From: a virus
Length of the DNA stretch: 25,875 nt
Direction: 5' to 3' (one strand)
IMG/VR virus record: IMGVR_UViG_3300025012_000268
Span: 1-25,875 of that record
Numbering within the stretch: position 1 is the first letter of the stretch; each line of letters begins with the position of its first letter. This document shows, piece after piece, positions 2,703 to 24,072 of this stretch. A program made the position numbers and the translations under genes. The notes under the pieces are model-generated. The model searched no databases. It had not been told where the DNA came from and saw nothing but the letters and a program-made list of their open reading frames with translations.

Positions 2703-4658
2703 ATGGCAGAAATAAATAGTCAAATATATAACACAATAGAAGGTGAATTAGTAACTAGTCGTTCTGATGATGGTAGTATACTGTCAATTTCGAGTTCAAC
2801 TATTAAGGCAACCGATGAACACCAATTTGTAGAATTAGATTCTATGCTGTTTTATTATTCATCACCCTATTTAGATGATATAATGGATACAGAATTTAAA
2901 GAGTTGGTACCACCTCAAGATTTGATAGATGCTCAGCAATCTATAATACCTCCTGGTATGATATTGATTAGTCAGTCAGATTGGTTAGCAACAGAATCGT
3001 TAGTACTAAATTTACATGAAGACTTAATAGTATCTAAAAGCTACTTTGACAATGAAATTTATATATTAAAGGCAGAAAATACTTCATTGGATTCAATAGT
3101 AAAATATGTTGACCAAGCAGCAAGTACTATACTAGATAAACAGATTGTTAAATATTCAGACCCATTTAGTAAACACTTTCCCAATAATCTTTCACCAGAA
3201 AATGAGAAATCATTTAATGAATTTTGGGTAGTACTAAATGCAACAAGAGCAGTGTTTGATATTCCATTTTCAAGTATAATTGAAAGTAGGGTACCTATTG
3301 CAAGTAGAACATCTTCATACGTTGATTATACATATGAGGTAGTAGCATCTATGTCGGCTCAAAATGGAATTAAACCCTATGTTTCTAAAATTATTACACA
3401 TGAAACAGATGTCAATTATAAAACTGCTTATAGTGATAAATATTTATTTGATTCATTTTATTATGGTGCATATATATTTGAAAATCCAGATACTGTAACA
3501 GCATTATTAGGAGAAAGGCAATATTTGTTAAACGTAACAAAATCTTTAAGAGAAGAAATTACACGATTACATGTTATATTATCAGGGGGGGGCGGAGGTG
3601 AAGGTATTACTGTAATTCCATCTATAGTGACAATAAACGAAAATCAAGAAATAAATTGTACATTAAAGTATGGAGCTTTACCATATAGAATAGATAATGC
3701 ACCTGAATCAGAAATTGCAATTGCATCTATAAATGGTGAAACGCTTGTGATAAAAGGTATTAAAGAAGGAAATACCCATTTATTAATCAAAGATGCAACA
3801 GTTAAAAATTTTGCAACAGTTGGAATAATAGTTAGTAACAAAGAGGTCTATTTTGATGAAAATCAATTTGCTAAAATGAGTTTAACATTTGTAGATTATT
3901 CTGGAAAATTTGATGTTTCTGATTTAGGTGTTACCATAAGTCATGTTACATTTCCTTCTGGTAAATATACATGGACACATAAACCAATTTGGACTCCAGA
4001 ACAAGCAGAATGGAAATACATACAAGAAGCGAAAATTCCTCCTGGATATATTAAGATAGATTTTAGTAAAAATATAGATCCTAATGATGTTGAAGAAATC
4101 TGGTATAATGAAAATGGTCCAACATTTCCATATGAAGATCGTAAATATGTTGATGTAAAACTAATTAATAATCTTAATGTTGCGAATATAGATGAAAAGA
4201 TATTATATTTTGGACCACCTGGAAATGTTAGCTCAAATAAACAAATAAATATAACATTTAGACACTATGTAGAAAATATTAATACAGGTAATCTTATACT
4301 TATTCTAAAGCAAGACATAAACTCATCTTGGTGGTGGAGATATGATGATGTGACTATTACTGTTAGATCTAGATTGCATCCTGAGAAATTTAATAAACAA
4401 ATTAGACCACCTTTATATAGTCAAAGTGATAGGTCTAATGAGATTCAATTCACTGAGGTACCTCCAGGACTTATAGATATTATATTTAGTGAAGAATTAA
4501 AACCTATTAATGTGACAAAACTTGAATGGTATCAGGATTTATTTTACTATCAACCAATTGATTTACCAATTCCAATTATACCATTCACTACTTTAACAGT
4601 GGAACACTTAACAAATGCAGATTCACAATTAAGCATATCGTTTAAAGGAGATTATTAA
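2703..4658 (+). CDS. Phage virion protein with Gly linker and Ig-like (BIg2-like) domain
   Basis: 651 residues, unrecognised as a specific gene. The N-terminal part (1-293) is mixed and ends in a helical stretch (ERQYLLNVTKSLREEITRLHVIL). A Ser-Gly5 linker (294-299) is encoded partly by a run of eight G bases. Next comes a domain resembling bacterial Ig-like domains: ITVIPSIVTINENQE, ALPYRIDNAP, GETLVIKGIKEGNTHLLIKDA (about 302-370). The remainder is beta-rich, with two related IPPGYIKIDFSK / VPPGLIDIIFSEE motifs that suggest a repeated module. Ig-like domains on phage virions usually mediate weak surface binding, so an exposed tail or decoration role is inferred. The start at ATG 2703 has only a weak SD (GAAG). 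Four bases separate it from the next gene, suggesting co-expression. Confidence 0.65.
   Translation: MAEINSQIYNTIEGELVTSRSDDGSILSISSSTIKATDEHQFVELDSMLFYYSSPYLDDIMDTEFKELVPPQDLIDAQQSIIPPGMILISQSDWLATESLVLNLHEDLIVSKSYFDNEIYILKAENTSLDSIVKYVDQAASTILDKQIVKYSDPFSKHFPNNLSPENEKSFNEFWVVLNATRAVFDIPFSSIIESRVPIASRTSSYVDYTYEVVASMSAQNGIKPYVSKIITHETDVNYKTAYSDKYLFDSFYYGAYIFENPDTVTALLGERQYLLNVTKSLREEITRLHVILSGGGGGEGITVIPSIVTINENQEINCTLKYGALPYRIDNAPESEIAIASINGETLVIKGIKEGNTHLLIKDATVKNFATVGIIVSNKEVYFDENQFAKMSLTFVDYSGKFDVSDLGVTISHVTFPSGKYTWTHKPIWTPEQAEWKYIQEAKIPPGYIKIDFSKNIDPNDVEEIWYNENGPTFPYEDRKYVDVKLINNLNVANIDEKILYFGPPGNVSSNKQINITFRHYVENINTGNLILILKQDINSSWWWRYDDVTITVRSRLHPEKFNKQIRPPLYSQSDRSNEIQFTEVPPGLIDIIFSEELKPINVTKLEWYQDLFYYQPIDLPIPIIPFTTLTVEHLTNADSQLSISFKGDY
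3585..3592 (+). repeat. G8 homopolymer in a virion gene
   Basis: Eight consecutive G bases, then CGGAGG, in an otherwise AT-rich gene. It encodes the Gly linker just before the Ig-like domain. Slippage would frameshift the gene after residue ~296. Confidence 0.9.
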
Positions 4659-11730: not shown

Positions 11731-13845
11731 ATGTCTTATAGAGATGATTATATAACATTAAGAGATGCAACATTAGAAATATGGAAAAGAATTTTAAACA
11801 ATCTACCATATTTGTACAAAACGAAGGGTACTATTCGTGGTCTTAGAGCAATGGTTACTTGTTATGGTATACCATCTACTCTTTTATATGTTAGAGAATT
11901 TGGAGGCCCAGATGTAAGTTCATCTATATGGAATGAATATAGATTTGATAATTATTCTTATGCATTAGATTTTATTCCAACTGCAAGTATGATGGGTGTA
12001 TGGACAGGAAGTAATTCAATTTATAATAGGGTACCAAGTTGCATTGAATTTAGATTTATAACAACAGGCAGTGCATATACAAAAAATGCTACAATGTCTT
12101 TATTTGAATTAGATAAAATTACTAATGGGGCAGGTACACTTAATAGTTTATTCGGAATACATACAATATATACAAATGAAGACACAGGTCACCTACAATT
12201 TGTAATTCCAAACAGCAATGATACTAGTAGTTTATTTGTTGCTTCTACAAGTGAATTTCCAATTTATGATAATAATCCCATTCACGTTGTTTTTCAGAAA
12301 GATACTGCATCTGATGGGGATATATCAAATGAATATCATCTATATGCAAATAAATATTTATATGGTTCTATCCTATATGCAGTATCTGCATCACTAATAG
12401 TATCAGCTAGCCAGAACTTATATTTTTCATCTCATTCATATGTAAACGTTGGTGGAGTGGTAAGTGGTACTGATGTAGTTAATAGATTTTCAAATGTAAA
12501 AGCATTCTACGGTTCTATAGATGAATTTAGATTATGGGATACAGCTCTAGCAAGAACAACAATAAATACTCACACCAGATATCCTCAGTCATTTATAGGT
12601 GACACTATTACAGCCTCCTATAATGATTTATTGTTAAAATATTCGTTTAATAATCCATTAGATGTTGGTGATAATACTATGGTGAGTATTGGTTTACCAA
12701 ATGAAGCACCATCTAATGGGTACGAGTTTCAAACTACATTTAGTCAATTTCCCAATATAACAGTATTTCCTTACCAATATAGCTTATATGAATATGAATC
12801 TGAAGCACATAGTATAAATTTAGGAAGCTCACGACAATCTTCTAATAAAGTTAGAATAGAAAATGGTACGCTTTTAGGACCACTTTCACCTACTGATAAG
12901 ATGGAAATAGGTCAATATGATTTATCACAAATTGATTCAAATAGACTGGGAATATATTTTACTCCTTCAGATCCAGTAAACGAAGATATGATTAAAACGT
13001 TAGCAATATCTGATCCGGGAGACTTAATAGGTAACCCAATAGATTTATATAATGATACATATTCAGAATTAGACAAGTTAAAAAATATCTATTGGCACAA
13101 TAGTTCAAGGAAAATTGGTGTAAATGATTATTTGAGATATATTAAATATTATGATCCAACATTGTTTGACCACCTAAGGTTAATGGTACCCGCAAGATGT
13201 CATATTAATTTTGGTATTGTCTATGAACAAACTTTGTTAGAAAGAGCGAAGACAAAATATATAAAACCTATAATTACTCCCCATCACTATGAACAATCAA
13301 TTGATATGCCAGAACATTATAGGAATATTACAAGTAGTTATATATCAACTGATGTATACTATGATATAAATTCCATTGTAACAATGAGTAACTCTGGATA
13401 TGATAATTTACCTGAGTTAATTTATTATATGAATGATGTTATGTACATAGTTAGTTCTAGTTATGCTAATTATAATTTACCTATGACTATAGAATTAACA
13501 GATTATTACAATGGTTTATCAGGAAGTATTGTAAACATTATAGGTCCAATTGTAGACTTTGATCATAATATTACCTATGAACATAAAGTTAAAATACCTC
13601 TGTCTCAGTCTTATATACCAACTAGTGGATATATTGGTTCTGCTACATGGATAGGATATCATCCTTCTCATTATAAATATTTTAATTGTTTCGGTACCTG
13701 GGAAAAGAGATTAAAGTGGATGGGTTGTTCTAATAATGAATCAATGACTACTGATAGGTTACCTGCAATTCAGACCTGGATCACAGATAAGAGGGTATTA
13801 AAATCAAAAGATGATGGAAAATCAAAATTGCAGATCATTAATTAA
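11731..13845 (+). CDS. C-terminal part of the large phage virion protein (split gene), LamG-like domain
   Basis: 704 residues. It opens with DYITLRDATLEIWKRILNNLPYLYKTKGTIRGLRAM, then CYGIPSTLLYVREFGGPD, signatures I know from the interior of large-myophage virion proteins rather than from an N-terminus. Next comes a LamG/concanavalin-like region: SCIEFRFITTGSAY, LQFVIPNSND, VHVVFQK-type strand, FYGSIDEFRLWDTAL (about 100-275). The end includes NRLGIYFTPSDPVNEDMIKTL, LRYIKYYDPTLFDHLRLMVPARC and a C-terminal beta module. No SD precedes ATG 11731; the upstream bases are pure A/T, unlike most neighbouring virion genes. Taken with the 4663-6255 ORF, it is best read as the back half of one gene. 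Either both halves are made separately, or the gene is broken. Confidence 0.72.
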   Translation: MSYRDDYITLRDATLEIWKRILNNLPYLYKTKGTIRGLRAMVTCYGIPSTLLYVREFGGPDVSSSIWNEYRFDNYSYALDFIPTASMMGVWTGSNSIYNRVPSCIEFRFITTGSAYTKNATMSLFELDKITNGAGTLNSLFGIHTIYTNEDTGHLQFVIPNSNDTSSLFVASTSEFPIYDNNPIHVVFQKDTASDGDISNEYHLYANKYLYGSILYAVSASLIVSASQNLYFSSHSYVNVGGVVSGTDVVNRFSNVKAFYGSIDEFRLWDTALARTTINTHTRYPQSFIGDTITASYNDLLLKYSFNNPLDVGDNTMVSIGLPNEAPSNGYEFQTTFSQFPNITVFPYQYSLYEYESEAHSINLGSSRQSSNKVRIENGTLLGPLSPTDKMEIGQYDLSQIDSNRLGIYFTPSDPVNEDMIKTLAISDPGDLIGNPIDLYNDTYSELDKLKNIYWHNSSRKIGVNDYLRYIKYYDPTLFDHLRLMVPARCHINFGIVYEQTLLERAKTKYIKPIITPHHYEQSIDMPEHYRNITSSYISTDVYYDINSIVTMSNSGYDNLPELIYYMNDVMYIVSSSYANYNLPMTIELTDYYNGLSGSIVNIIGPIVDFDHNITYEHKVKIPLSQSYIPTSGYIGSATWIGYHPSHYKYFNCFGTWEKRLKWMGCSNNESMTTDRLPAIQTWITDKRVLKSKDDGKSKLQIIN

Positions 13846-13888
13846 AAACTATTAAATTTTTAAAAAATCTGTATATTAATATAAAAAT

Positions 13889-14425
13889 ATGCCAAGCGGG
13901 GTTTATATAAGAACAGAAGAAATTAGAAAAAATATGTCTAAGTCACATATAGGAAAACACCATTCAGAAGAAACTAAGCAAAAAATATCTAAGACGGGGA
14001 CAGGTAAAACTAGAAAACCATTTTCGGAAGAAACAAAAAGAAAGATGTCTGAAGCGAATAGAGGAATGTTAGGAAAACATCACTCTGAAAGAACAAAAAG
14101 AAAAATGAGACTGTCAGCTATAAAAAGAATAGAAACTAGACTTGGTACTGCTATTCCTAATTATAACATTGGTGCTTGCAAAATAATAGAAGATTATGGT
14201 ATAGCTAATGGTTACAACTTCCAACGTGCAGAAAACGGTGGAGAATTTTATATTAAAACTCTGGGATATTACGTAGATGGATATGATAAAGATAAAAACG
14301 TAGTAGTTGAGGTTGATGAACAACACCATTTTGATAGAAATGGAAATTTAAAAGAAAAAGATATTACAAGACAGCGTGAAATACAAAATTTTTTAAGTTG
14401 TAATTTTATAAGAATTAAGATATAA
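13889..14425 (+). CDS. EDxHD-type homing endonuclease with NUMOD3-like repeats
   Basis: 178 residues. The N-terminal half is short basic NUMOD3-type repeats (KSHIGKHHSEETKQKIS, KPFSEETKRKMSEANRG, GKHHSERTKRKMRLSAIKRIE). A central segment (NYNIGACKIIEDYGIANGYNFQRAENGGEF) leads to the nuclease domain GYYVDGYDKDKNVVVEVDEQHHFD...DITRQREIQNFLSCNFIRI. Glu141, Asp143, His146/147 and a following Asp fit the EDxHD metal site. It is clearly a paralogue of the endonuclease at 2-814, but with the catalytic Asp intact. No SD is visible before ATG 13889. Its end, the following SD and the next gene's first codons are duplicated 260 bases downstream, so this element or a relative entered this junction at least twice. 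Confidence 0.82.
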   Translation: MPSGVYIRTEEIRKNMSKSHIGKHHSEETKQKISKTGTGKTRKPFSEETKRKMSEANRGMLGKHHSERTKRKMRLSAIKRIETRLGTAIPNYNIGACKIIEDYGIANGYNFQRAENGGEFYIKTLGYYVDGYDKDKNVVVEVDEQHHFDRNGNLKEKDITRQREIQNFLSCNFIRIKI

Positions 14426-14457
14426 GGAGAACAAACATGTCGTATTTAAATAATGAT
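14401..14457 (+). repeat. Direct repeat copy 1: endonuclease tail, SD and virion gene start
   Basis: Begins TAATTTTATAAGAATTA (encoding NFIRI), then AAGGAGAACAAAC and ATGTCGTATTTAAATAATGA. Copy 2 at 14661-14723 matches apart from a few substitutions and about 6 extra bases between the endonuclease tail and the SD. Confidence 0.9.
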
Positions 14458-14487
14458 ACAATTACTACAAACAATTACCTAAAATAA
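14437..14487 (+). pseudogene. Orphan duplicated 5' end of the 14703 virion gene
   Basis: Encodes MSYLNNDTITTNNYLK and a stop, behind a strong SD (AAGGAGA). The first seven residues equal those of the intact gene at 14703 (MSYLNND), and the next few align (TIT against QIS) before the frame diverges and stops. It therefore looks like the original or an older start of this gene, severed after about 10 codons. It should still be translated into a short peptide because its SD is intact. Confidence 0.78.
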
Positions 14488-14680
14488 TTAATTAAACTTA
14501 AAAATTCAATATATATTATTAATAAAGTAATTAGATAACCTCAAAGAATAAACACATAGATTAGAAATGGTAAACAAAGGAACAGTTCCTTGGAATAAAG
14601 GATTGACAAAATAAACTAGTAAATCTGTGGAACTCTATGCTAATTAGAAGGTCTAGGTTATAATTTTATAAGAATTAGAA
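14488..14680 (+). pseudogene. Relic of a second homing endonuclease gene
   Basis: Two scraps of coding sequence survive. At 14567-14614 the frame reads MVNKGTVPWNKGLTK and a stop; reading through gives TSKSVELYAN. This is a typical start of phage HNH/EDxHD endonucleases ('PWNKGLTKET..'). At 14642-14683 another frame reads LEGLGYNFIRIRI and a stop, the C-terminal strand of an EDxHD nuclease domain. The catalytic middle is gone, so this is a heavily deleted copy. The N-terminus differs from the intact 13889 gene, so it was a different element with a similar nuclease end. 14488-14566 shows nothing else I recognise. Confidence 0.65.
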
Positions 14681-14723
14681 TTTAAAATTAAGGAGAACAA
14701 ATATGTCGTATTTAAACAATGAT
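14661..14723 (+). repeat. Direct repeat copy 2: endonuclease tail, SD and virion gene start
   Basis: Matches 14401-14457. Here the endonuclease tail belongs to the relic, and the ATG at 14703 continues into the full virion gene. Confidence 0.9.
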
Positions 14724-15344
14724 CAAATTTCGGTTGACGCCATTCTAACAAAACGGGGTCGCGAATTATTTTCACAGGGAAAATTTTCTATAACTAAATT
14801 TGCTCTTTCAGATGATGAAATTGATTATGGTTTATATGATAGAACACATCCATCTGGTTCAGATTATTATTCTGTAGCAATAGAAAATTTACCTATGTTA
14901 GAAGCTATTCCAGATGGTAGTAAAATGATGAAACATAAATTGGTAACATTACCAAAAGGAACAACTACTATACCTATGGTTACAGTTGGTCTAACATCAA
15001 TACATTTAACATCAAAAACTGCAACATATCCTGGGTCATCACAACAAGTCACTCCTTCTACTGTAAATGGGTTAAATGCAACACTGGGGTACACAGCAAC
15101 TATATACAGTACAGCATATGTAACATTGAGTGTTCTAGCTAATGTTCAGGGAAATGCAACTACGCTGCCTACATCGACATATCAACCAGGATATTCAGTT
15201 GTTGGATTGTCATTCTTGCTTCAGGCAAAAACAATAAGGCCTGGTATAACAGCAACAACAACATTAATAATAACAGGAAATGAAACAGGTGGTACTGTTA
15301 CTATTCCGATATATATAGTAGAAGGTGTTACTAATCAAAGTTAA
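14703..15344 (+). CDS. Phage virion structural protein (MSYLNND family)
   Basis: 213 residues with a good SD (AAGGAG, 14690-14695). The N-terminal ~80 residues (SVDAILTKRGRELFSQGKFSITKFALSDDEIDYGLYDRTHPSGSDYYSVAIENLPMLEA) are a pattern I recognise from structural proteins of large environmental myophages, function undetermined. The C-terminal part from about residue 85 is Thr/Val-rich beta sequence (ATLGYTATIYSTAYVTLSV, PGITATTTLIITGNETGGTVTIPIYIVEG), resembling an Ig-like domain. It lies 18 bases before the next virion gene, suggesting one transcript. Its first codons were duplicated by the selfish elements upstream, and the copy used now may derive from the invading element. The virion role is inferred from family style and neighbours. 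Confidence 0.7.
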   Translation: MSYLNNDQISVDAILTKRGRELFSQGKFSITKFALSDDEIDYGLYDRTHPSGSDYYSVAIENLPMLEAIPDGSKMMKHKLVTLPKGTTTIPMVTVGLTSIHLTSKTATYPGSSQQVTPSTVNGLNATLGYTATIYSTAYVTLSVLANVQGNATTLPTSTYQPGYSVVGLSFLLQAKTIRPGITATTTLIITGNETGGTVTIPIYIVEGVTNQS

Positions 15345-15362
15345 TATAATTAGGAGATAAAA

Positions 15363-16406
15363 ATGGCAGATGACGTAATTCAAACAACAATGGCTAGACC
15401 TGTATCTGTATTTACACCGTTTAATTTAGACGATGACATTGTAACAGAGGTACCAAGTAGAGTAACATATGGACTTTGGTCAGATGGTAGTGGAATTTTA
15501 ACGGGAATGTCTACATCTTCTGTAGCTGATGCTTCTATAAAGAAGTATTATCACGATGTATATGGATCAGGGGCAACAGGAAGTGCAGCAGTTGAATTTT
15601 CTATTGCATACGGACACGTATCAGGAAGTGGTTCTGATGTATCAGATAGGGACAATTCTACACAGGCAATTTATGGTCAATATAGATCTTTATTACTTGC
15701 AAATCCAAATGGCTCATTTATAACAATTGATGGTACTAAAACTTTAACTGATTTTATTGCAATAAATATTAAAAGATCTAATTTAAAACAAAAATTAGAT
15801 GCAGGAAACTGGCAACTTAATCTAACTAGTACAGTATCGGGAACTCACTATTTAATTGACAATAGCGGAGGCGCAGAAGATACTAATATAAGTACAGTCG
15901 GTAATGTATTAGCAGTTGTTAGTGGAACAGTTGTAGGTGGAGAAGTTGCAGCTGGAGCATTGGCTAATAAAGAATACGGATTATGTTATCCAGAATATGG
16001 AATTATATTACTAGATCCTCGGAGAATCTCAGAGTCTTTGTGTCCATTTGATTATAATACCGCAAGTGATGCATATTATGATAATCATGGTAAACTCTTT
16101 GGTAAAATGTCAGGTTCAGCAGCTGTTTGTTATTTTGAAGCTCGTAGTGAAGAAATAATAAGTTCAACTCATTATTTTGTCAGACTGAAAAATAAACAAT
16201 ACAACTATACTACTAACCCAACATTTTATTCTGCATCAGATGGTACTATAATATATTCAGAATTTTATGATAATCCAGAGGTATATGTAACAAGTATAGG
16301 ATTATATAATAATAGTAATGAATTGGTTGCAGTTGCAAAGACAAGTCAACCTATTAAGAAGTCGTTTTCACTTGAATCCCTATTTTCCGTCCGGCTCGAT
16401 TTTTGA
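15363..16406 (+). CDS. Phage virion protein, paralogue of the 17571 gene
   Basis: 347 residues, with SD AGGAG at 15352-15356. The N-terminus (RPVSVFTPFNLDDDIVTEVPSRVTYGLWSDGSGILTG) precedes DASIKKYYHDVYG and a region with IYGQYRSLLLANPNGSF and FIAINIKRSNLKQKLDAGNWQLNL. The C-terminus (VYVTSIGLYNNSNELVAVAKTSQPIKKSFSLESLFSVRLDF) is the hallmark end of this virion family. The 17571 product ends in a clearly homologous way (AIGLYNDHNELVMVGKLGAPFKRDYDLDTTFIIRLDV). The two are tandem paralogues now separated by an endonuclease gene. Exact place in the virion unknown; tail or neck is a guess from context. Confidence 0.7.
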   Translation: MADDVIQTTMARPVSVFTPFNLDDDIVTEVPSRVTYGLWSDGSGILTGMSTSSVADASIKKYYHDVYGSGATGSAAVEFSIAYGHVSGSGSDVSDRDNSTQAIYGQYRSLLLANPNGSFITIDGTKTLTDFIAINIKRSNLKQKLDAGNWQLNLTSTVSGTHYLIDNSGGAEDTNISTVGNVLAVVSGTVVGGEVAAGALANKEYGLCYPEYGIILLDPRRISESLCPFDYNTASDAYYDNHGKLFGKMSGSAAVCYFEARSEEIISSTHYFVRLKNKQYNYTTNPTFYSASDGTIIYSEFYDNPEVYVTSIGLYNNSNELVAVAKTSQPIKKSFSLESLFSVRLDF

Positions 16407-16484: not shown

Positions 16485-17495
16485 ATGAGCAAAGAAATAC
16501 TATGCAGAATATGTAATAAAATTTTTAAAGTAAGTTCTATGGCATCCCATCTAAGAGTTCATAACATTAAATACGAAGAATATGCAGAAAAAAATTTAGA
16601 TCAATTTCCACAACTTAAAAATAAAACATGTATAAAATGTGGATCTAAAACAACAAATAACAAATTATGTAAACTATGTTACAAAGATTCTGATAAACAA
16701 GTTAAATGTAAACACTGTAATAGACAAATTAAGATTAAAGGGTTGGCTCATCACTTAAAAACAACGCATCACATTTTATTCGATGATTATGTACAAAATA
16801 GTATAGAACAATTTCCCAACTGGCATCCCTGTTTAATCTGTGGAAAATTAACTCCAAACAAAACAACCTGCTCTGGAAAATGTGAAGGAGAACACAAAAA
16901 AATTATTTATAAAGGTAGGGGACTTTTTAGTTTAATTTCAGAAGAACAAAAAATAATAGTTGGAAAAAAAATAGGTGAATCTCAGAGAAAAAGATTTTCT
17001 ATACCAGGAAACAGTGATTATTTAAAGGGTGATAATAATCCAGCTCACAGACCAGGGGTTGGAAAGAAAATATCGGAAACCCGTTTAGCTCGTGGCTGTG
17101 GAGTAGGTAGTAAAAATCCAATGTATGGTAAAACTCATACCCCAGAGGCAATTAAGAAAATATTCTCGTACCGAAAAATGAATAAAACTGAGAAAATAGT
17201 AGCTGATTTGTTAGATCAACAAAAAATTCCATATGAATTCCAATTCTTTATCACTGATAATAGTATCTGCAAATCATATGACTTTAAGCTTAAGGACAGA
17301 CCTGTAATTATAGAGGTTGATGGAGATTTTTGGCACGGTGGTCCAGGTTCAAAAACATATTGGAAAGACGTTGATAAGGTAAAACTAAATGATGTATTAA
17401 AAGAATCCATTGCTAAAACTAAAGGTTATAAGTTGTTAAGGTTCTGGGAAAGTGATTTAAAAAAAGATGTAAATATTATTCTTCAATATTTATAA
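16485..17495 (+). CDS. Vsr-like (EDxHD) homing endonuclease with duplicated zinc-finger units
   Basis: 336 residues. The N-terminal 133 residues form two tandem units of the same plan: CxxC, HxxxH or HHxxxxH, a Y...QFP segment, CxxC, then CxxC/CxxxC. Unit 1 uses Cys7/10, His22/26, Cys49/52, Cys62/65. Unit 2 uses Cys75/78, His89/90/95, Cys116/119, Cys129/133. Basic NUMOD3-like linkers follow (GVGKKISETRLARGCGVGSKNPMYGKTHTPEAIKK). The C-terminal nuclease domain is NKTEKIVADLLDQQKIPYEFQF, SYDFKLKDRPVIIEVDGDFWHGG (Glu277, Asp279, His284), a downstream Asp and GYKLLRFWESDL, as in Vsr-like nucleases. It is inserted between two paralogous virion genes, and its SD is sequestered in a hairpin. Confidence 0.85.
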   Translation: MSKEILCRICNKIFKVSSMASHLRVHNIKYEEYAEKNLDQFPQLKNKTCIKCGSKTTNNKLCKLCYKDSDKQVKCKHCNRQIKIKGLAHHLKTTHHILFDDYVQNSIEQFPNWHPCLICGKLTPNKTTCSGKCEGEHKKIIYKGRGLFSLISEEQKIIVGKKIGESQRKRFSIPGNSDYLKGDNNPAHRPGVGKKISETRLARGCGVGSKNPMYGKTHTPEAIKKIFSYRKMNKTEKIVADLLDQQKIPYEFQFFITDNSICKSYDFKLKDRPVIIEVDGDFWHGGPGSKTYWKDVDKVKLNDVLKESIAKTKGYKLLRFWESDLKKDVNIILQYL

Positions 17496-19899: not shown

Positions 19900-22800
19900 A
19901 TGGAAATAAAAAAACTCACCACTAAAATTACCTCAGTAGATCAAATTGTACATATTGCGGATATCCATATAAGGCCTTATAAGCGACATGTTGAATTTAA
20001 ACAAGTGTTTGAAAATTTATATAAATCGATCAATTCAATAAAAACAGAAAATACCATTATTGCTATTTTAGGAGATCTATTTCATGCTAAAACAGAAATG
20101 ACTCCAGAGCTTATTTCTATTGTATCAAATCTATTAATAAATCTTTCTAATATATGTCCTTTGATAATAATACCAGGAAACCACGATTGTTTTACAGGAG
20201 ACCATGAAATTTTAACTAGAACTGGTTGGGTATCTTTAAAAGAATATATAGATTTAAATAAAAACGAAGAAGTAACAACATTTAATTTATCTACAAATGA
20301 ATTAAGCTTTGAAATGCCAACTGCGAAAATAAAAAGACGTCACAATGGTAAACTTCTACATTATAATGGAAAGGATGCGGAATTTATATGTACTCCAACA
20401 CATAGAATATTATATAAACAAGGAAATAATATTATTGGTGAAAAAATATATGAAAAAGAAGCTAAATTTTTAATAAACAGAAAAATTAATATTCCATTAA
20501 ATGGTATAATTAATAATGATAATTATATACAAAATAAATTTGCAAGATTAGCTGGATTTTCTTTTGCTGAGGGTACATTTGTTAAAAAATATTTTAATAA
20601 AAATAAAAGATTAGTGGGCAGAATACAATTTCATTTAAAAAAAGATAGAGAAATAAATTACATATGTAATATAATGTCTCAATATGGAATAAAAATAGAT
20701 ATAAATAAATACATTAAAAAAGATGGCGCTTGGACATATTCTATAAGTGGGCAACTAGCAACTGATATTTTTAAATTTTTTAATACTGATAAAGATTTGA
20801 TTAAATTTACGTGTTTAAATAAGAATATACCATGGACAATTTTAAATGAAGATATAAATTCTTTGAAATCTTTTATGGATGGATATTTACATGGAGATGG
20901 TTGTAAGAATAAGAATTTTTGGTCGTTTTGTTCTATGAATAAACAGAGTATAGAAATTCTATCGACAATTTCTAGATTTATTGGAGCTCGTTCTAGAACA
21001 TATTTTAAAAAAATATTTTATGGAAAATATGAAAATTCTAAAAGATTATACGGGGGATCATGTACAATAAATAATTTAATTAATAGTACACATTGTAATT
21101 TTTCAAATGAAATAGATTATAATGATTATGTATATTGTTTAACAACTCCAAATTCAACTCTTTTAATAAGATATAAAGATAAAATATTTATTTCTGGCAA
21201 TTGCAATTTAAATAATCCAAATAGATTAGATTCTATAAGTCCGATTGTAAATAATTTAAATAGAAAAAATATTTTTTATTTGAAGCAAGGTGGGGTTTAT
21301 GAGTTAGCAGATATATATTTTTGTCACCTATCTATCTTTGATGTGCCTAAAAATTATATAAGAGCAGTTGATGTTCCAAATGATAAAAGAAAAATTGCAT
21401 TATTTCATGGAATTGTTGATAAATCAACAAACGAATTTGGTTATAATCTAAGAAATGAACTCGTAGACAAGACTATTTTTTCTGGATATAATATTACTCT
21501 TTTAGGAGACATTCACAAACCCCAATCCTTATCAGAAAAAATAGTTTATCCGGGAAGTTTGGTGCAAAATAATTATGGCGAGGGATTAACTCATGGGTAT
21601 GTATTGTGGACTCTTAAAAATGAATCTAATAAATTCATTACTATAGAAAATGAATATGGTTATTACACCTTAGAAATTAAAAATGGAGTTGTTCCGGATG
21701 CAACTGATGTTCCAAAAAAGTGTAGAATGAGAGTTCATGCATATGATATGGCAGTTGCAGAATTGAATGATGCATTGGGTATCATAAAGAAAAAATATAA
21801 TCCTATTGAAATTACTATAAATAGAATATCATCAACAAAATATAATATTTCTACAGAAGATAGAGTTAAATTGAATATTCTAAATATTCAAGATATATCG
21901 TACCAAAATGATTTAATAGAAACATACATTTTACAAAATAATACCATCGATCAAAAAGGTTTAGATACTATAAGAGAAATTAATACAAATTTAAATAGTA
22001 GTATTAATACAGGCGACTTTGTTAAAAATGTTAGATGGTCACCTTTAAAGTTCGAGTGGTCAAATATGTTTTCCTATGGAGAAAATAATATAATTGATTT
22101 TACAAATCTAAGGGGTATAGTGGGCTTATTTGGAGTAAATGTAGTTGGAAAAACATCCGCAGTTGACAGTTTGTCATTTTGTTTATTTGATAAGACTAGT
22201 AGAGATTTTAAACCTATAAACATTATTAATAATAAATCAAACTACCTTGATTGCAAAATAAAATTTTTATTATCTAATACTGAATATTCAATACATAGAC
22301 ATGTATATAAAAATAAAAAAGGTGATCCTATGTATAAAGTAGAATTTTCATATATAGATGATGCCAAAGAAGTACAATCGCTTAATGGAGAAAATAGGTG
22401 GGATACCAATAAAAACATATATTCAAGAATAGGTACCTTTGAAGATTTTATTTTAACTGCATTTAGTATGCAGGGTAAAAATGCGAATTTTTTAGAAAAA
22501 GGACATTCAGAAAGAAAAGATTTATTAATTCAATTTATGGGGTTAAGCTTATTTGATAGTCTATATGAGATGGCATCTAATAAATATAAGGATAAAATGT
22601 CTTCTCTAAAGACACTACAACACGAAAACTGGGCAGATAAACTAATTAAATCAGAAAGAAAATTGACAGATTTAGAAACTATATATTCGGAAAAAATTTT
22701 AAATAAACAAAATATATCAAATACTATTAAGTCAATTGAAACAAATATAAATGAGTTAAGAGAACAATTGGTAGATATAGATGAAGATTTGGATATAAAT

Positions 22801-24072
22801 GATTTGATAATTAAGAAACATAATAAAGAAAAAGAAATTAAAGAATTAAATAATGAAATAACTAAAATAATTGATGGCTTAGAAAAGTCTAGGAGTACTA
22901 TAGAAGAATATAATGCCAGAAAAAGTATGTACAAAAGTTTAAATATAGATAATATGATTATAGATGTAAATAATTTAGAAAAAAATAAAACTGAATTATT
23001 ATCAAAAATAGATACATTTCAGGTAATCGTCGACAACGAGTTGGATAAGATGGACAAGTTAAAAGAGTTGGAGTATGATCTTAGTTGTAAATATTGCATG
23101 AACAACATATTTGTAAAAGATGCGATTGCAACAAAACAAAAATTAGAAGAAGATAGTGAAAAATTAAATGCATTAAAAACAGACTTAAATTTACTAAAAG
23201 ATATTATAGAATCTAAGTCTAATATTAAAGAACAGTACGAAGAATACCAGATGATACTTAAAGATATTCCTAATTTAGAAGTTACACTGCACAGAGAAGA
23301 TTTAGAAAAAATCACACTACAAAGTTCTATGCACTCAAAAGAACATGAACTTGGGTCATTAAATGATAGGATAGAGAAGTATAATTATAATAAAGTATCT
23401 ATAGAAAATAACAATCGAATAAACACGTTCATCACTGAGTTAAACAGGGAGGTCCACAAATATGATAAACCTATACGTTTATTAGATACAGAAATTTTAA
23501 ACATATTCGGTAAAATAAAGGTCGAAGAATCTAATCAAAAAGCATATAAGTTAAATATAGAAAAACAGAACAGTTTATTAATAGAAACCGATTGTTATAA
23601 AGTATATCTAGATGCTATTAAACGAGACGGAATTCCCTATGATTTGATTTCTAAAATTATACCAACCTTAGAAACTGAAATTAATAACATCTTGAATCAG
23701 ATTGTAGATTTTTCTATAATGATTAGTTTGGATGAATCAAAGAATATAAATATGTATATTGTATATGATGAAAATAACTTTTGGCCTTTAGAAATGACTA
23801 GTGGAATGGAACGTGTCATATCTTCAATTGCGATACGGGTTGCCTTAATAAATATCTCTGAATTACCAAGGTCCAACTTTTTGATTTTAGATGAGTTGTT
23901 TGGTGTATTAGATGCAGATAATTTAAATAATGTTTCAATGTTAATGGATTATTTGAAAACTCAGTTTGATTTTGTATTACTTATCTCCCATATAGATGAT
24001 ATCAAAGAGATACCGGACGTTTATATTGATCTTCAGAAAATAAACGGATTTAGCTCCATTTCTCACAACTAA
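19900..24072 (+). CDS. Fused SbcD-SbcC (T4 gp47-gp46-like) recombination nuclease/ATPase with intein
   Basis: 1390 residues as translated; about 1052 after removal of the 338-residue intein. The SbcD/Mre11 part has HIADIH (Asp21, His23), GDLFH (58-62), GNHD (93-96) and, after the intein, GDIHKP (536-541) and YPGSLVQNNYGEG, the metal-site motifs of this phosphoesterase family. From about residue 708 it becomes SbcC/Rad50: RWSPLKFEWSNMFSYGENN, Walker A GVNVVGKT (745-752), long coiled coils, a CKYC zinc hook (Cys1063, Cys1066), signature MTSGMERV (1299-1306) and Walker B FLILDELFGVLD (Asp1331, Glu1332). The complex processes DNA ends for recombination-dependent replication. In T4 these are two genes (47 and 46); here they are one polypeptide. 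Oddities: Walker A lacks the usual Gly after Asn, and the intein splits the active site just after GNHD. Confidence 0.88.
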   Translation: MEIKKLTTKITSVDQIVHIADIHIRPYKRHVEFKQVFENLYKSINSIKTENTIIAILGDLFHAKTEMTPELISIVSNLLINLSNICPLIIIPGNHDCFTGDHEILTRTGWVSLKEYIDLNKNEEVTTFNLSTNELSFEMPTAKIKRRHNGKLLHYNGKDAEFICTPTHRILYKQGNNIIGEKIYEKEAKFLINRKINIPLNGIINNDNYIQNKFARLAGFSFAEGTFVKKYFNKNKRLVGRIQFHLKKDREINYICNIMSQYGIKIDINKYIKKDGAWTYSISGQLATDIFKFFNTDKDLIKFTCLNKNIPWTILNEDINSLKSFMDGYLHGDGCKNKNFWSFCSMNKQSIEILSTISRFIGARSRTYFKKIFYGKYENSKRLYGGSCTINNLINSTHCNFSNEIDYNDYVYCLTTPNSTLLIRYKDKIFISGNCNLNNPNRLDSISPIVNNLNRKNIFYLKQGGVYELADIYFCHLSIFDVPKNYIRAVDVPNDKRKIALFHGIVDKSTNEFGYNLRNELVDKTIFSGYNITLLGDIHKPQSLSEKIVYPGSLVQNNYGEGLTHGYVLWTLKNESNKFITIENEYGYYTLEIKNGVVPDATDVPKKCRMRVHAYDMAVAELNDALGIIKKKYNPIEITINRISSTKYNISTEDRVKLNILNIQDISYQNDLIETYILQNNTIDQKGLDTIREINTNLNSSINTGDFVKNVRWSPLKFEWSNMFSYGENNIIDFTNLRGIVGLFGVNVVGKTSAVDSLSFCLFDKTSRDFKPINIINNKSNYLDCKIKFLLSNTEYSIHRHVYKNKKGDPMYKVEFSYIDDAKEVQSLNGENRWDTNKNIYSRIGTFEDFILTAFSMQGKNANFLEKGHSERKDLLIQFMGLSLFDSLYEMASNKYKDKMSSLKTLQHENWADKLIKSERKLTDLETIYSEKILNKQNISNTIKSIETNINELREQLVDIDEDLDINDLIIKKHNKEKEIKELNNEITKIIDGLEKSRSTIEEYNARKSMYKSLNIDNMIIDVNNLEKNKTELLSKIDTFQVIVDNELDKMDKLKELEYDLSCKYCMNNIFVKDAIATKQKLEEDSEKLNALKTDLNLLKDIIESKSNIKEQYEEYQMILKDIPNLEVTLHREDLEKITLQSSMHSKEHELGSLNDRIEKYNYNKVSIENNNRINTFITELNREVHKYDKPIRLLDTEILNIFGKIKVEESNQKAYKLNIEKQNSLLIETDCYKVYLDAIKRDGIPYDLISKIIPTLETEINNILNQIVDFSIMISLDESKNINMYIVYDENNFWPLEMTSGMERVISSIAIRVALINISELPRSNFLILDELFGVLDADNLNNVSMLMDYLKTQFDFVLLISHIDDIKEIPDVYIDLQKINGFSSISHN
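20188..21201 (+). mobile_element. Intein with LAGLIDADG endonuclease domain in the SbcD active site
   Basis: Residues 97-434 of the fusion protein. Block A starts at Cys97 (CFTGDHEILTRTGW). Block B has CTPTH (Thr165, His168). Two LAGLIDADG-like motifs follow (LAGFSFAEG, 217-225; FMDGYLHGDG, 325-334). The C-terminal blocks are YVYCLTTPNSTLLIRYKDK and FISGN (Asn434), with +1 Cys435. Removing it rejoins IIIPGNHD to CNLNNPNRLDSISP, a normal SbcD sequence. Gly replaces the usual penultimate His. It inserts right behind a catalytic motif, as inteins commonly do. It looks even more A/T-rich than its host gene. Confidence 0.9.

Follow-up and report, generated by a model that had tools for sequence, protein, structure and literature searches.

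Can an endonuclease that arrives beside a conserved phage gene bring a new beginning for that gene with it and leave the old one stranded? This question is raised by a locus in a virus record of 25,875 bases (the whole stretch analysed, hereafter the window), where the start of a structural gene occurs twice, each time after the tail of an endonuclease. The rearrangement is real, well bounded and rather uncommon.

A duplicated endonuclease tail and gene start

The boundary lies between a tail-type structural gene and a second structural gene, here called the target gene. Its features are listed below with strand and evidence.

11731..13845, +, tail-type structural gene of 704 aa, left neighbour of the boundary (ORF; homologues directly upstream of the target gene in relatives)
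13865..13892, +, degenerate leader motif before HEN1 (rank 11 of 25,848)
13889..14425, +, HEN1, intact 178-aa homing-endonuclease-type protein (Pfam NUMOD3, 7.4e-12; PHROG homing endonuclease)
14394..14425, +, C-terminal tail of HEN1, NFIRIKI and stop, first repeat copy (repeat D4, 84% to 14654-14685)
14424..14435, +, ribosome-binding site AAGGAGAACAAA of the stranded start (direct reading)
14437..14466, +, stranded codons 1-10, MSYLNNDTIT (25 of 30 nt identical to copy 2; closer to 100 of 109 homologues)
14467..14500, +, left junction of the putative inserted block, with loose 13-nt repeats starting ACAATTAC (TRF score 41-43, weak)
14501..14528, +, leader motif of the second block (rank 9 of 25,848)
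14567..14685, +, HEN2 remnant of 119 nt (translation; 63% over 19 aa to an N-terminus in L049; tail in repeat D4)
14690..14701, +, ribosome-binding site AAGGAGAACAAA of the functional start (direct reading)
14703..15344, +, target gene, a 213-aa structural protein, with codons 1-10 as copy 2 (ORF; more than 100 phage homologues)

The unit made up of an endonuclease tail, AAGGAGAACAAA and ATGTCGTATTTAAA is present at 14394-14466 and again at 14654-14732, the tails lying 260 and the starts 266 nucleotides apart. Mechanical repeat finding returns two direct repeats, D2 (14408-14463 and 14674-14729) and D4 (14394-14425 and 14654-14685), each with 84% identity, tails and starts being equally diverged between the copies. 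As a single gapped alignment that includes a 6-nt indel (14394-14463 versus 14654-14729), the copies score 80-83, whereas 1000 shuffles average 21-23 and reach 41 at most, which bears out the duplication claimed in the earlier note. The first ATG, at 14437, opens a short ORF that closes at 14487 and is gene-like only to codon 10, in line with the claim that this start breaks off after about ten codons; the second, at 14703, opens the full target gene, whose protein begins MSYLNNDQISVDAIL and has MSYLNNDQIS as its first ten residues. The 17% difference between the copies and the decay of the second endonuclease fit the further suggestion that the event is not recent or that the copies came from different phages.

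Homologues of the target gene form a family that is widespread among phages, has the consensus MGYLNNSTITVDAILT and includes members in Microcystis phage Mel-JY01 and Flavobacterium immuto phages. The predicted model of the target gene's product is poor over residues 1-12 (pLDDT below 50) and hence uninformative on the 5' end.

Since the window is a virus record without reads, the repeat could in principle reflect two strain variants joined in a metagenomic contig. This is very improbable: the repeats differ by 16% and by an indel, the longest exact words they share (~17 nt) are too short for the usual assembler overlaps, the junction between the first copy and the following block lies outside the repeat, and the intervening relic, with its stops and deletion, looks like decayed DNA.

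An intact and a decayed endonuclease at one boundary

Two endonucleases have arrived at this boundary, of which HEN1 is intact and HEN2 decayed. HEN1 is composed of three NUMOD3 motifs and a C-terminal domain, putatively PD-(D/E)XK/Vsr-like, the predicted model of which weakly resembles restriction-endonuclease-like folds including I-Bth0305I and Vsr (Foldseek hits to 3r3p at E = 0.097 and 1cw0 at E = 0.15; none below 0.001). Of the positions that characterise the Vsr-like EDxHD endonucleases, E/H are conserved in an alignment. The gene is an intergenic nuclease-type ORF whose site is empty in ~110 loci, as in free-standing phage homing endonucleases. Within 13800-15400 no Rfam match was obtained up to E = 1, and the target gene is contiguous, placing the locus outside any self-splicing intron by this test.

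Of the two endonuclease tails claimed earlier, the first is thus the end of a complete gene, while the second turned out to be the end of a relic. In-frame stops interrupt the HEN2 remnant, its reading frame changes, and a large internal part of it is deleted. Its N-terminus, encoded by ATGGTAAACAAAGGAACAGTTCCTTGGAATAAAGGATTGACAAAATAA, reads MVNKGTVPWNKGLTK and then a stop, with further stops after it; its tail, GYNFIRIRI and stop, is out of frame and leads up to the functional start with its ribosome-binding site. This N-terminus matches an endonuclease-type N-terminus in L049 (63% over 19 aa); it has no Pfam match, being too short for one, and no second carrier of HEN2 was found. The two enzymes differ in their N-termini, with NUMOD3 repeats in HEN1 and MVNKGTVPWNKGLTK in HEN2.

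Between the first start and HEN2 lies an AT-rich leader of about 100 nt. Of 112 target-gene leaders from relatives, 101 contain the motif ATATTTAT, against 2.9 expected from shuffles; the motif is probably promoter-like. When a profile built from 88 relatives' leaders was scored over 25,848 window positions, matches ranked 11 and 9 fell before HEN1 and in the second block, respectively, and the top-ranked position, 16440, lies ahead of another endonuclease at 16485. The motif likewise precedes the endonuclease in L034 and L176; hence, endonucleases here tend to sit between leader motif and ribosome-binding site. The second unit looks like a full leader-endonuclease-start block, more than a start.

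Elsewhere in the window, matches to the leader motif also precede the genes at 11731, 16485, 18906 and 24118. The ORF at 16485-17495 codes for a zinc-finger/NUMOD3/Vsr-like endonuclease and follows the gene at 15363-16406. L196 has a broken copy at this site, and in L197 the site is empty.

By eye the second block seemed to open with a copy of the 3' end of the tail gene (KQLPKIIN versus KLQIIN, each before a stop). This suggestion was discarded, since alignments of the left junction to the 3' ends of nine upstream genes were no better than shuffles, as were those of leader 1 to leader 2 (p 0.35). The junction has two copies of ACAATTAC 13 nt apart, a microhomology candidate. A long-span measure of these repeats was reached in 2 of 300 shuffles and an adjacent-repeat measure in 93 of 300; as a tandem repeat, with a TRF score of 41-43, it is borderline and was set aside as a mark of the junction.

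Empty and occupied sites in related phages

The earlier note had proposed looking for an empty site continuous from TIT to VDAIL, and such sites exist in L001 and other relatives. Their layout is the tail gene, about 30-120 nt and an uninterrupted M(G/S)YLNNxTITVDAIL, so that the first copy in the window stops exactly where the relatives continue. In nearly all loci of the family the target gene follows the tail gene or another structural gene. TIT directly precedes VDAIL in L001 and in 22 of the 118 homologues, being the commonest triplet there, and T is the residue before the motif in 93 of the 118; L197 has TVT. The triplet QIS occurs in the window only and in none of the other homologues surveyed.

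Six of the 118 loci, namely the window, L034, L112, L176, L025 and L029, carry an endonuclease in the gap between the tail gene and the target gene. The 369-aa enzyme of L034 combines DUF7487 repeats with the same catalytic domain as that of HEN1; by identity HEN1 is closest to this enzyme (65%), a relation that the tree of catalytic domains does not resolve. L112, a 484-kb uncultured phage (LR756508), has an endonuclease at the target-gene boundary that falls in a supported clade apart from HEN1. The enzyme of L176 is GIY-YIG-like with NUMOD3, and that of L025 is HNH-like. PD-(D/E)XK/NUMOD3, GIY-YIG-like, HNH-like and DUF7487-type families are thus all present at the boundary, in a census partly seeded with the boundary's own enzymes, the numbers of which are descriptive. 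These different families in the window and five other phages, along with the separate clade of the L112 enzyme, make the repeated invasion of one 5' boundary that had been proposed well supported by sequence comparison.

The other five occupied sites all have single starts, with no duplication of the start. Searches for closer relatives by scanning for the pattern K[R/S]GREL[F/Y]SQG returned only contigs already known, and a genome scan returned only 37-59% relatives, in bacterial bins.

Origin of the two starts

Of 109 homologues, 100 are nearer to the stranded start and 2 to the functional one, with 7 ties, in a comparison that rests on 30 nt and on homologues that are not independent of one another. 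Against L197, the nearest empty-site relative, the stranded start matches at 26 of 30 nt and the functional one at 21 of 30. The greater divergence of the functional start is what the earlier note's idea of an imported start would lead one to expect. Together with the unique QIS it points to a foreign origin: by these comparisons the functional 5' end of the target gene looks foreign, and the stranded start appears to be the native-looking one. MSYLNNDTIT at 14437..14466 is probably the old 5' end of the target gene, and end replacement is probable at this gene. Among the sequences searched, no donor of the functional start was found.

These data bear on another history, in which the leader and start were duplicated in tandem within one genome, an endonuclease was later inserted between the copies or swapped, and drift did the rest. 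Such a history would account for the endonuclease tail, ribosome-binding site and start common to both copies and for the equal divergence of tails and starts. Plain duplication and drift would, however, leave the selected copy nearer to the relatives, and it is the unselected, stranded one that is nearer. Given also the different N-termini of the two endonucleases, and that a bare tandem duplication of the start is seen in no relative, we consider this history improbable.

Flanking duplications at other endonucleases

DNA repeats across the endonuclease gene were scanned in 74 endonuclease contexts, of which three, HEN2, L108 and L085, gave strong cases. In L108, a NUMOD3/HNH endonuclease (3607-4541) lies between the genes for the terminase small and large subunits (gp16/gp17), and 28 exact nucleotides, AAGAGAAGATTGTAACTGATGCAGCGGA, which take in the end of one gene and the beginning of the following one, occur on both its sides. 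In phage C48C1 the two terminase genes overlap; hence, the duplication in L108 keeps both of them whole. In L176 (2645-3466), the GIY-YIG-like endonuclease is flanked by a 37-nt repeated leader segment with ATATTTAT, scoring 44 against a shuffled maximum of 36 (0 of 200 shuffles).

The window itself holds a 3' case. A GIY-YIG endonuclease at 1893-2693 ends KIKVISGSLENIFELPTEFLVT, a diverged copy of the end of the preceding gene (798-1889), RIEVVSGSLKNIYELPVSFKVVR; some 21 last codons of that gene are copied (protein z = 12.7). L194 has an empty site at the corresponding position (798-2693), and here it is the functional end that the relatives resemble more.

In L085 (3568-4567), a 35-nt repeat lies on both sides of a NUMOD3 endonuclease. 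It matches codons 33-49 of the downstream gene, internal codons rather than its start, and was not retained as a clean case.

A separate observation concerns the ORF at 19900-24072, a fused metallophosphatase and SMC-type ATPase (gp47/gp46-like) in which Pfam finds both host domains. About 330 extra residues inside the phosphatase, starting CFTGDHEILTRTGW, read like a candidate intein.

One-sided homing as a possible route

We favour a reading, at about an even chance of being right, in which one-sided homing swapped the 5' end of the target gene. The ancestral state would be that of the relatives, with the tail gene, a short leader and the target gene. The free-standing HEN1 would have inserted into the leader, downstream of the promoter-like motif and upstream of the ribosome-binding site; the resulting state, with a single endonuclease, exists in L034. 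While a second phage, bearing the different endonuclease HEN2 in the same leader, coinfected the cell, the target gene would then have been cut close to codon 10, where its conserved VDAILTK stretch has its edge. On the gene-body side, homologous repair would have brought over the donor's HEN2, leader motif, ribosome-binding site and codons 1-10. The opposite side, lacking homology, would have been closed by an illegitimate join, stranding the recipient's ribosome-binding site and first ten codons upstream. With MSYLNNDQIS, the donor block would have given the target gene an entire new 5' end and so kept it functional, and HEN2 would afterwards have reached the decayed state now observed. The cut near codon 10, the coinfection and the order of arrival are what we infer; the anatomy, the empty site, the decay of HEN2, the repeated occupation and the relative divergence of the starts are read directly. 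In T4, one-sided homing, illegitimate repair and microhomology junctions are documented (PMC2988022).

Several observations support one-sided homing: the break of the first copy at a position continuous in relatives, the presence between the copies of a decayed endonuclease that has a leader motif and a start region of its own, the native-looking stranded start, the single-endonuclease intermediate in L034, the several families and resolved lineages of boundary endonucleases, and the flanking duplications in L176, L108 and the 3' case of the window. Against it stand the single starts at the five other occupied sites and the left-junction sequence, which matches no tail-gene 3' end beyond shuffles. 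The favoured order is further opposed by the decay of HEN2, the supposed newcomer beside the full gene, while HEN1 is intact.

That last point speaks for a reversed order, with HEN2 resident and already decayed in the arrangement tail gene, HEN2, MSYLNNDQIS, and with a block of HEN1, ribosome-binding site and MSYLNNDTIT copied in upstream later. The left end of this block would have been set in through tail-gene homology and its right end joined illegitimately, which would make the extra start the newcomer's useless end rather than a displaced native one. Most relatives have T-x-T, and any unit with this usual start would look native. Yet the resident must have evolved QIS, which is absent from the other homologues including the nearest (L197, L034, L195 and L198), and the break at the edge of the conserved target motif is left unexplained. 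We regard the reversed order as possible though unlikely.

Returning to one-sided homing, the earlier note's concept of an element that ends in a replacement 5' end for the gene it enters gains from the foreign-looking functional start; as a regular part of a mobile unit, such an end is not borne out at the five other sites, which have single starts. The same anatomy could have come from one single one-sided repair event.

Comparison with known end-replacing elements

In the fungal mitochondrial mORF hybrids (Glomus atp6, atp9, cox2 and nad3; Allomyces atp6), much as proposed for the window, a free-standing endonuclease ORF brings a foreign gene end that is taken into the functional gene, the native end is stranded beyond the endonuclease, and it is the native end that groups with its kin and not the inserted one (PMC3630166). 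These hybrids concern 3' ends (C-termini), LAGLIDADG or GIY-YIG enzymes and mitochondria (PMC3630166), whereas the window presents a 5' end, a tailed phage and NUMOD3/PD-(D/E)XK-type enzymes. The yeast WHO elements, which home into FBA1, compare with the proposed reading as mobile units of an endonuclease gene and a replacement gene end, whose repeated arrivals leave endonuclease pseudogenes and gene-end fragments clustered beside the full-length gene (PMC7282813). They differ in replacing 3' ends, in being intein-derived with a zinc finger and in having had cleavage shown (PMC7282813), as against a 5' end and an unrelated enzyme family in the window.

The order found in WHO and mORF elements recurs here, with the stranded, native-looking end at 14437-14466, the HEN2 remnant at 14567-14685 and the functional, probable replacement end from 14703 onward. 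The same replacement end was not found travelling with an endonuclease in several genomes, L034, L112, L176, L025 and L029 being single-start. HEN1, with NUMOD3 and a PD-(D/E)XK-like fold, is not intein-like with a zinc finger and hence lies outside the WHO family proper. By analogy, it is plausible that the locus works like WHO elements.

Among phage systems, the one-sided homing of the T4 td intron shares with the proposed route homology repair on one flank, an illegitimate join on the other and phage recombination (PMC2988022). It differs in that the T4 work involves laboratory intron crosses (PMC2988022), whereas the window has a natural locus, free-standing endonucleases and a displaced gene start. 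The T4-type free-standing seg and mob genes are also intron-less endonucleases at the edges of conserved structural genes and variably present, and the available portions of PMC2988022 and PMC10448857 contain no duplicated target-gene start beside an endonuclease. Nor did the limited set of literature searched include a 5'-end version or a phage case of gene-end replacement.

End-swapping selfish genes have so far been described mainly in fungi and at 3' ends, and the window would be their 5' mirror in a phage. It is a tentative and rather doubtful generalization that phages harbor a recurrent class of homing elements with a replacement gene end, 5' or 3', in the mobile unit, each arrival rewriting the edge of a structural gene and stranding the old one. 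If true, this would be the phage counterpart of the WHO and mORF elements, with the 5' version in the window and the 3' version at 798-2693 and at gp16/gp17 in L108. The locus itself would show, in natural phage DNA, how an arriving endonuclease can alter the ribosome-binding site and opening codons of a conserved structural gene while leaving that gene whole. Gene ends near endonuclease hot spots would then evolve as foreign patches, and the gene-edge fragments in phage leaders would be accounted for. The locus would thereby provide a testable phage model for a kind of end replacement otherwise known for fungal 3' ends.
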